A stretch of DNA of 64,000 nucleotides from NCBI GenBank assembly GCA_002781365.1, contig PETN01000094.1, positions 1-64,000 on the forward strand, in the 5' to 3' direction. Positions 19,874 to 33,177 of the stretch are shown here, one piece after another (position 1 is the stretch's first letter; each line of letters opens with the position of its first letter). Position numbers and translations under genes: made by a program. This stretch comes from Sulfurimonas sp. CG01_land_8_20_14_3_00_36_23 (GTDB taxonomy: Bacteria > Campylobacterota > Campylobacteria > Campylobacterales > Sulfurimonadaceae). Under the pieces are notes generated by a model that was given only the letters and a program-made list of their open reading frames with translations, did no database searches and was not told the DNA's origin.

Positions 19874-21253
19874 ATGGATAAAATGTGGTCTGGTCGTTTT
19901 TCTGCAAGTGCTTCAACTCTCTTAGACAAGTTTAATGCTTCAATTATGTTTGATAGAAAACTTTATCGTGAAGATATTGAGGGCTCTATAGCACACGCTA
20001 CTATGCTTGAGAATCAAGGTATCTTAAATAGTACCGAGCTACTTCAAATTATGGATGGCTTAAATCAAGTGTTGCAAGAGATAGAGTCAGGCGAATTTGA
20101 GTGGAAAATCTCTGATGAAGATTTACACATGGCAATAGAGAAGCGCTTAACCGCAATCATTGGTGACGCTGGCAAAAAACTTCATACAGCAAGAAGTAGA
20201 AATGATCAGGTTGCAGTTGATTTTAGACGTTTTGTTCTTCGTAAAAATAGAGAAATCATTGAAGCAATTAAGCTTCTTATGCGTGAAATCTTAGTCGTGG
20301 CAGAGAAACATACAGAGACGCTTATGCCTGGTATGACACATCTTCAACATGCACAACCAATTAACTTCGCTTTTCATTTAGGGGCGTATCTCTCTATGTT
20401 TAAGCGTGATATTGAGAGATTTGAGAGCTCTTATACGCGCAATAATGTATCTCCTTTAGGGTGTGCAGCATTAGCGGGAACTCCACATGCCATTGACAGA
20501 AGCATGACAGCTGAATTACTGGGGTTTGATAGTGTAAGCGTCAACTGTTTAGATACGGTAAGCGATAGAGATTTTGCCTTAGAAATTTTGTTTAATATCT
20601 CTACGATGATGATGCATATTTCACGTTTAAGTGAAGAGCTTGTTATGTGGTCAAGTTATGAGTTTGGTTTTGTTGAGTTAAGTGATGAATATTCCACAGG
20701 CTCTTCTATCATGCCACAAAAGAAAAATCCTGATGTACCAGAGCTTCTTCGTGGGAAAACGGGTCGTGTTTATGGCTCTTTGATGGGACTTTTAACAGTT
20801 ATGAAAGGCTTGCCATTAGCTTATAACAAAGATACGCAAGAGGATAAAGAGGGTGTTTTTGATGCAGTAGAAACTGCTGAAATATCACTGGAAATTTTAA
20901 AAGAAGCTATCAAAACGATGCAAGTCAAAGCGCATAATATGAAAAATGCTTCTAAAATCGGACACCTCAGTGCGACAGATTTAGCTGATTATTTAGTAGA
21001 GAAGTGTGGCATTCCATTTAGAGAAGCACACTTTATTACAGGTAAAGCTGTAGCCAAGAGTGAAGAGTTAAAGATTGATTTGAGTGATATAGAACTTCAC
21101 TATTTGCAAGCGATAGATTCGAGAATAAATGCAGATGTATTGAAATTTTTATCGATTGAGAACTCAATGAATGCAAGAGTCTCTTTTGGTGGAACAGCAA
21201 CTGTTCGAACCAAAGAACAACTAGACTATTTTAAAAATTATATAAAGGATTGA
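19874..21253 (+). CDS. argH: argininosuccinate lyase
   Basis: ArgH cleaves argininosuccinate to arginine and fumarate. The 459-aa protein has the N-terminal [25 protein letters not shown]-like [11 protein letters not shown] and the superfamily signature [12 protein letters not shown]. Catalytic His and Ser residues are in place. GGAGAAATTATAATG gives a clear ribosome site. The OsmC gene begins at its end and probably shares the transcript. Confidence 0.97.
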
Positions 21254-21258
21254 TATTT

Positions 21259-21723
21259 ATGCAAGTAACTATTTCTCATCAAGAAGGGATGAAATTTGAG
21301 GCGAAGACCTCTAAGAGTAGTTTTATTATTGATTGTCCTGTTATCTCTCCAGTAGAGTATTTTTTAGCAGGAATTATCACATGCAGTGCAACCGATATTG
21401 TACTTATTCCAAAAAATCAAGATAAAACTGTTACAGACTTGGTTGTCTCAGGTGATGTTGTTAGAAATGAGACTGCACCATGTAAATTCAACACACTTCA
21501 TTTAACATACAGTTTCAACTCGGATGGAGATGATACCATGGCGGCTCGTTGGGTTATGGCATCTCTAGAGACCTATTGCTCTACTATCAATACTATCCGT
21601 GATACTACGGCTATCTCTTACTCTATCACGCACAATGGCAAACTTATCCGTGAGGATGAGAAGATGATTTCAGGTGGCGGAACAAACATTGATTTTGGCA
21701 CAATCGAGAGTTGTCCAAGTTAA
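21259..21723 (+). CDS. OsmC/Ohr-family protein
   Basis: OsmC-like proteins are small thiol peroxidases that reduce organic hydroperoxides with two cysteines. Here VEYFLAGIITCSATDIV holds the first cysteine at the usual place, and the second is probably in LETYCSTINTIRD. The frame extends to a TTG at 21250, but the ATG at 21259 has AAAGGA about 10 bases upstream and is preferred. It gives about 154 aa. A perfect inverted uptake-repeat hairpin follows the stop by 7 bases. Confidence 0.85.
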   Translation: MQVTISHQEGMKFEAKTSKSSFIIDCPVISPVEYFLAGIITCSATDIVLIPKNQDKTVTDLVVSGDVVRNETAPCKFNTLHLTYSFNSDGDDTMAARWVMASLETYCSTINTIRDTTAISYSITHNGKLIREDEKMISGGGTNIDFGTIESCPS

Positions 21724-21729
21724 AACTTT

Positions 21730-21760
21730 TTGGCATGTGGAAATGATTTCCACATGCCAA
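21730..21760. repeat. perfect 15-bp inverted pair of the uptake-like repeat
   Basis: TTGGCATGTGGAAAT at 21730-21744 is the exact reverse complement of ATTTCCACATGCCAA at 21746-21760, with a single G between. The hairpin begins 7 bases after the OsmC stop, so it could end transcription, though no long T run follows. Head-to-head uptake sequences acting as terminators are a hallmark of Neisseria and Haemophilus genomes. Confidence 0.85.
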
Positions 21761-21903: not shown

Positions 21904-22020
21904 ATGTTAGTCATGGCAACAGTTTTAATAGCATGTGCAATTTTAATGATTTTAGCGTATGAGTTTAGTTTTGTATGGAAAAAAAGAGAGTGGGGCGAAA
22001 ATTCTAAAAGTTTTTTTTAG
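21904..22020 (+). CDS. 38-aa single-pass membrane protein
   Basis: AAGGAG lies 7 bases before an ATG that opens a 38-codon frame ending TAG at 22018-22020. The product begins MLVMATVLIACAILMILAY, one strong membrane helix, followed by a short positively charged tail (FVWKKREWGENSKSFF). Positive charge after the helix suggests a cytoplasmic C-terminus. The strong ribosome site and the clear helix make a real gene likely. I do not recognise a family. It converges on the lytic transglycosylase gene. Confidence 0.65.
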   Translation: MLVMATVLIACAILMILAYEFSFVWKKREWGENSKSFF

Positions 22021-33141: not shown

Positions 33142-33177
33142 ATTTCCACATGCCAAAAGAAGTTGGCATGTGGAAAT
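33142..33177. repeat. 15-bp inverted pair of the uptake-like repeat
   Basis: ATTTCCACATGCCAA (33142-33156) and its exact reverse complement TTGGCATGTGGAAAT (33163-33177) flank a 6-base loop. The pair lies between the convergent serA and RND genes, 6 bases past the RND stop. It could end transcripts from both sides, and is the second such pair in the window. Confidence 0.85.

Follow-up and report, generated by a model that had tools for sequence, protein, structure and literature searches.

Head-to-head pairs of an uptake-like repeat cluster just past stop codons in a Sulfurimonas genome and may serve as transcript 3′ ends

Results

The gene end downstream of argH and osmC

The DNA analyzed here, from here on called the window, is a stretch of 64,000 nt from the genome of a Sulfurimonas species, as judged from its argH gene, which reaches 90% identity with Sulfurimonas genomes (75-90% identical to argH of Sulfurimonas and Sulfuricurvum). 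An osmC-like gene, for which orthologues were found in 12 relatives, overlaps argH (Table 1). Its TAA stop codon (21721-21723) is separated by 6 nt from a hairpin, TTGGCATGTGGAAAT-G-ATTTCCACATGCCAA, whose arms are complementary at 15 of 15 positions and lie 1 nt apart; no other perfect inverted repeat in the window is as long. The initial annotation had described a perfect 15-bp head-to-head pair with a 1-base gap 7 bases past a stop codon, and this description proved exact in sequence and coordinates. Counting perfect inverted repeats with a minimum arm length of 12 and a maximum gap of 8 nt gave 6 overlapping placements in the window and none in any of 5 Markov resamples.

Table 1. Coordinates of the genes and repeat features (window positions unless a contig, C, of the genome is given)
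Feature	Position	Strand	Description
argH	19874-21253	+	459-aa ORF, first gene of the unit ending at the hairpin
osmC-like gene	21250-21723	+	overlaps argH; Pfam PF02566, E = 8e-11
Left hairpin arm TTGGCATGTGGAAAT	21730-21744	+	one repeat copy, plus orientation; consensus TTTGGCATGTGGAAWT
Right hairpin arm ATTTCCACATGCCAA	21746-21760	-	second repeat copy, opposite orientation
Second inverted pair in the window	33144-33175	.	tail-to-tail, TTCCACATGCC-10 nt-GGCATGTGGAA, in the spacer of convergent genes
Tandem repeat arrays (G000)	C13:5-83, C86:4717-4778, C94:8-86, C75:35326-35390

As the innermost base pair cannot close a 1-nt loop in RNA, a stem of 13-14 bp with a 3-nt loop is predicted. The 81-nt region around the hairpin folds with -22.9 kcal/mol (z = -4.7), and 0 of 200 shuffled sequences folded as well. 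A stable stem-loop is therefore located just downstream of the stop codon, as in a terminator. No match to a known structured RNA in Rfam was found in the window, and the hairpin site is absent from the terminator-like sites of the window.

Between the hairpin and a transglycosylase gene, there is an ORF of 38 aa (21904-22020, plus strand) with a ribosome-binding-like site (MLVMATVLIACAILMILAYEFSFVWKKREW...) and without a Pfam match; a similar ORF start occurs at the same place in genome G168 (L169). Gene calls were simple open reading frames, with a minimum of 60 aa at the window site, and the spacer containing the hairpin was scored as convergent by this caller; it would be tandem instead if the 38-aa ORF is a gene.

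Abundance and distribution of the repeat

Each hairpin arm constitutes one copy of the 16-bp word TTTGGCATGTGGAAWT. In the fragmented genome assembly (2.43 Mb, 102 contigs), its core GGCATGTGGAA occurs 734 times, with 354 and 380 copies on the two strands, while the reversed control word yielded 0. Within the window, GGCATGTGGA was found 24 times, compared with 0.06 expected instances. A sample of 464 kb, consisting of the window and twenty 20-kb stretches and complemented by the flanks of all pairs, contained 143 exact copies of the repeat versus 64 copies with one mismatch, and eight shuffled words gave 0 exact copies. These control counts exclude a chance origin. Sequence conservation is confined to about 16 bp and ends at the edges of the word; the flanks are not conserved.

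Of the 139 single copies in the same sample, 121 (87%) were genic, which is near the share of coding sequence (93%); these genic copies occurred in all six frame/orientation classes. Copies were not evenly spaced along the chromosome (CV 1.08 vs 0.95 for random placement). Short tandem arrays of the repeat with 17-bp or 18-bp units were also observed, some of them at contig ends.

The word is hence short, present in hundreds of copies far above chance, equally frequent on both strands, located in genes as well as in spacers and devoid of conserved flanks, all of which characterizes uptake sequences. Its description as uptake-like in the initial annotation agrees with copy number, strand balance, genic placement and the behavior of the inverted pairs, and the accompanying claim that codon usage cannot account for the pair is borne out by the intergenic location of the pairs and by the single copies in every frame and orientation. 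Judged from sequence, the abundance, the genic single copies and the use of all frames are the signature of an uptake sequence, rather than of insertion elements, codon usage or polar chromosomal motifs. Polarity of the Chi or KOPS kind was rejected because the strands are balanced. A mobile or phage element was rejected as well: among 2.9 million viral contigs only 7 contained the 16-mer and none contained an inverted pair, and no plasmid match was found.

Inverted pairs are enriched just past stop codons

Pairs were defined by a distance of at most 30 nt between cores. Genome-wide, 41 head-to-head pairs (40 distinct) and 16 tail-to-tail pairs were found, compared with 1.7 expected for either arrangement, while direct pairs amounted to about 10 loci versus 3.4 expected, some of which are tandem arrays. 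The excess of inverted over direct pairs (56 vs about 10 loci) was significant (p = 2e-8). Their spacers vary between 1 and 29 nt. The head-to-head pairs were intergenic in 37 of 40 cases; in the 464-kb sample, 22 of 24 copies belonging to inverted pairs were intergenic, different from the mostly genic single copies (Fisher p = 3e-14).

For 36 intergenic head-to-head pairs both neighboring genes were known. In 27 of these, the distance to a stop codon was at most 30 nt (26% expected, p = 9e-10), a clustering that holds even against random positions within spacers. Convergent spacers contained 16 of the 36 pairs (14% expected) and divergent spacers only 3 (29% expected). A genome-wide lack of enrichment of inverted pairs near gene ends had been named in the initial annotation as the observation that would speak against a gene-end role; the pairs are enriched just past stop codons, so that the proposal passed this test.

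An enrichment of inverted pairs at gene ends with a preference for the head-to-head arrangement is also a feature of uptake sequences. Published counts resemble those obtained here (41 head-to-head and 16 tail-to-tail pairs): in Haemophilus influenzae, pairs within 10 nt number 50 for the head-to-head, 25 for the tail-to-tail and 1 for the direct arrangement (PMC1852404). The hairpins of Neisseria meningitidis are likewise gene-end inverted pairs, to a large extent between convergent genes and almost never intragenic (94 convergent, 124 tandem, 10 divergent, 3 intragenic; PMC1852404).

The osmC gene end in related genomes

A head-to-head pair downstream of osmC is present in the motif-bearing relatives G151, G105, G103 and G091, with differing loops and distances to the stop codon. 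In G135 one arm of the pair is imperfect, and in G144 one arm was found beside masked bases. Among genomes with few or no copies of the repeat, G095 possesses a clean stem of 11 bp at this position that is unrelated to the repeat, other stems were found in G143 and G168, the latter possibly being part of the promoter of the next gene, and G148 and G071 lacked a significant stem there. The stem at this gene end is thus recurrent while its sequence is exchangeable, as co-option predicts. The other genomes with high copy numbers contain 12-34 head-to-head pairs each.

The stems are not followed by a U-tract

In 50 tails read in sense direction, the mean content of the first five bases past the stem was 0.64 for T and 3.42 for A; T-rich tails were found in only 5 of these 50, and beyond the first five bases the T content corresponded to that of ordinary spacers. 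Unlike in intrinsic terminators, no U-tract directly follows the stem. The motif begins with TTT, hence the stem is followed by A. Stems with A-rich sequence instead of a U-tract behind them are not canonical intrinsic terminators. The idea that uptake-sequence pairs double as terminators consequently stands in part: the enrichment just past stop codons favors it, whereas classical Rho-independent termination is unsupported as the T-tail is missing.

At gene ends free of the motif, stems of at least 8 bp were detected in 18 of 110 cases, compared with 0-1 of 110 in shuffled sequences, and 6 of these 18 stems had a T-tail. Since most of them lack one, gene-end stems without U-tract seem to be normal in this genome. 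By contrast, the hairpin tails of N. meningitidis contain about 3 T on average (PMC1852404, Table 4), and the T-tail in Haemophilus originates from the AAAA end of the motif. Published work attributes the preference for head-to-head pairs to the tail that this arrangement supplies, an explanation that cannot hold here. An alternative reason may be that the arrangement provides a GC-rich stem base together with a short AT-rich loop.

Different words in different Sulfurimonas genomes

High copy numbers of GGCATGTGGAA are restricted to some Sulfurimonas genomes, with 535-946 copies in G103, G105, G135, G142, G144 and G151, while the majority of the genus, and every other genus of the family that was sampled, showed background counts. 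A different word, ACTGCGTTTA, is overrepresented with up to 414 strand-balanced copies in G170, G145 and G202 (control 1-3). Its overrepresentation extends to G211, G140 and G071 (L158, L003, L015), and GGCATGTGGAA is absent or rare in these six genomes. The genomes enriched in ACTGCGTTTA also contain a few inverted pairs of CTGCGTTTA. We consider ACTGCGTTTA a candidate for a second dialect. The palindrome HTACATGTAD (TTACATGTAA or CTACATGTAG) reaches 550-655 copies versus 15-27 for the control in G064, G137, G152, G139, G115 and G141 (L140, L144, L155); it is a candidate for a third dialect or, alternatively, for an unrelated protein-binding or modification site.

Three words were counted, and none of the genomes compared contained more than one of them in abundance. 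These mutually exclusive words look like a set of dialects, among which the GGCATGTGGAA word alone was analyzed in depth.

Further words were observed in individual loci. Words resembling CTCACGCA, namely CTCACGCAAG, TCTCACGCA and CCTCACGC, are enriched in the Sulfurimonas loci L048, L051, L043 and L141, and a 20-kb stretch contains 8 copies of CATTTGTACC versus 0.07 expected (L149, G087). One contig in a Sulfurimonas assembly (L142, G019:C1:1-18348) has a G+C content of only 15%, unlike the other stretches sampled, and is possibly a contaminant or a foreign element.

Competence genes

The genome (G000) encodes comEC (PF03772) and ten proteins with type IV pilin-like N-termini, a competence machinery that does not set this species apart. 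Two of the pilin genes are located just upstream of priA, about 7 kb from comEC (G000:C1:59402-60478; L083, L084), and pilin genes occur near comEC in other Sulfurimonas, too. The two pilins are candidates for a DNA receptor. As relatives lacking the repeat have comEC and pilins too, these genes permit but do not prove that the repeat would guide DNA uptake.

Discussion

We propose, with a probability of roughly 0.6, that TTTGGCATGTGGAAWT is an uptake-type word whose head-to-head pairs past stop codons have been co-opted as transcript 3′ ends. The word would be a DNA-uptake-type self-recognition sequence of a Sulfurimonas lineage, its hundreds of copies presumably being kept by transformation-linked recombination. 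Position and comparison suggest that stem-loops formed by head-to-head copies immediately behind stop codons have been co-opted to provide transcript 3′ ends; a 3′-end role of the pairs is likely. The hairpin at 21730-21760 would accordingly close the argH-osmC unit. Its stem most likely pauses or terminates RNA polymerase and/or blocks 3′-to-5′ RNases, without the aid of a U-tract, which makes help by Rho or NusA possible. Owing to its symmetry, a single hairpin of this kind can act for both genes of a convergent pair.

The properties of the repeat resemble those of the uptake signal sequences (USS) of H. influenzae and other Pasteurellaceae, which are present in hundreds of mostly single copies at near-equal numbers on both strands (PMC1852404). 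The sequences are unrelated and the organisms belong to different phyla, and uptake has been demonstrated in Haemophilus, whereas it is inferred here. The existence of different overrepresented words in different species parallels the dialects of DNA uptake sequences (DUS) in the Neisseriaceae (PMC3630211). However, in Neisseria the words are variants with a common CTG core, whereas the Sulfurimonas words are not obviously variants of each other; ComP is the established receptor in Neisseria, compared with pilin candidates here, and the pairs in Neisseria carry T-tails. With intrinsic (Rho-independent) terminators the pairs share a strong stem-loop a few bases past the stop codon and the enrichment at convergent gene ends, but not the U-tract.

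Alternatively, the word might be an uptake sequence whose hairpins have no function, close inverted copies being tolerated only downstream of genes, since a stable stem would do harm within genes and in divergent spacers with their promoters. The lack of a U-tract fits this explanation, too. Nevertheless, we regard it as unlikely, because tolerance alone does not predict that inverted pairs far exceed direct ones. The clustering within 30 nt of stop codons, even relative to random spacer positions, the recurrence of pairs with different loops at the osmC end in several species, and the frequency of stems unrelated to the repeat at other gene ends, far above the shuffled rate, likewise argue against it.

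Still less probable is that the repeat is the binding site of a chromosome-organizing or regulatory protein, with the inverted pairs as high-affinity double sites. Hundreds of conserved copies would be compatible with such a site, and the uptake function is deduced indirectly. Yet, the strands are balanced and polarity is absent, single copies occur within genes in all frames, unlike regulator sites, and the pairs avoid the divergent spacers in which such sites would lie. Moreover, quite different words replace the repeat in other species of the genus, as is the case for uptake dialects. REP elements are typically palindromic intergenic repeats near gene ends, but we consider a palindromic mobile element of the REP or MITE type barely credible, as there is no dispersed unit of conserved length with conserved flanks, the pair spacers vary, most copies are single and genic, and the viral and plasmid comparisons were negative as reported above.

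The reading of TTTGGCATGTGGAAWT as an uptake-type word with co-opted gene-end pairs leads to a wider proposal, to which we assign about even odds: that Sulfurimonas (phylum Campylobacterota) possesses an independently evolved uptake-sequence system with several mutually exclusive dialects, in which pairs serve as transcript ends lacking a U-tract. Uptake sequences have been described for Pasteurellaceae and Neisseriaceae, and the requirement for them was called unique there (PMC3630211). A literature search that had preprints and most subscription journals outside its reach returned no earlier description of uptake sequences in Campylobacterota. If true, a system in this phylum would have originated independently and would allow a natural test of the emergence, the spread and the between-species change of such sequences. 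The recruitment of uptake hairpins to gene ends would then be independent of the T-tail, unlike what was proposed for Neisseria and Haemophilus, and gene-end hairpins without T-tail make two explanations for the occurrence of uptake sequences in terminators separable, a ready-made stem and a ready-made tail. Environmental Sulfurimonas would offer a model of self-selective transformation in bacteria that are not host-associated.
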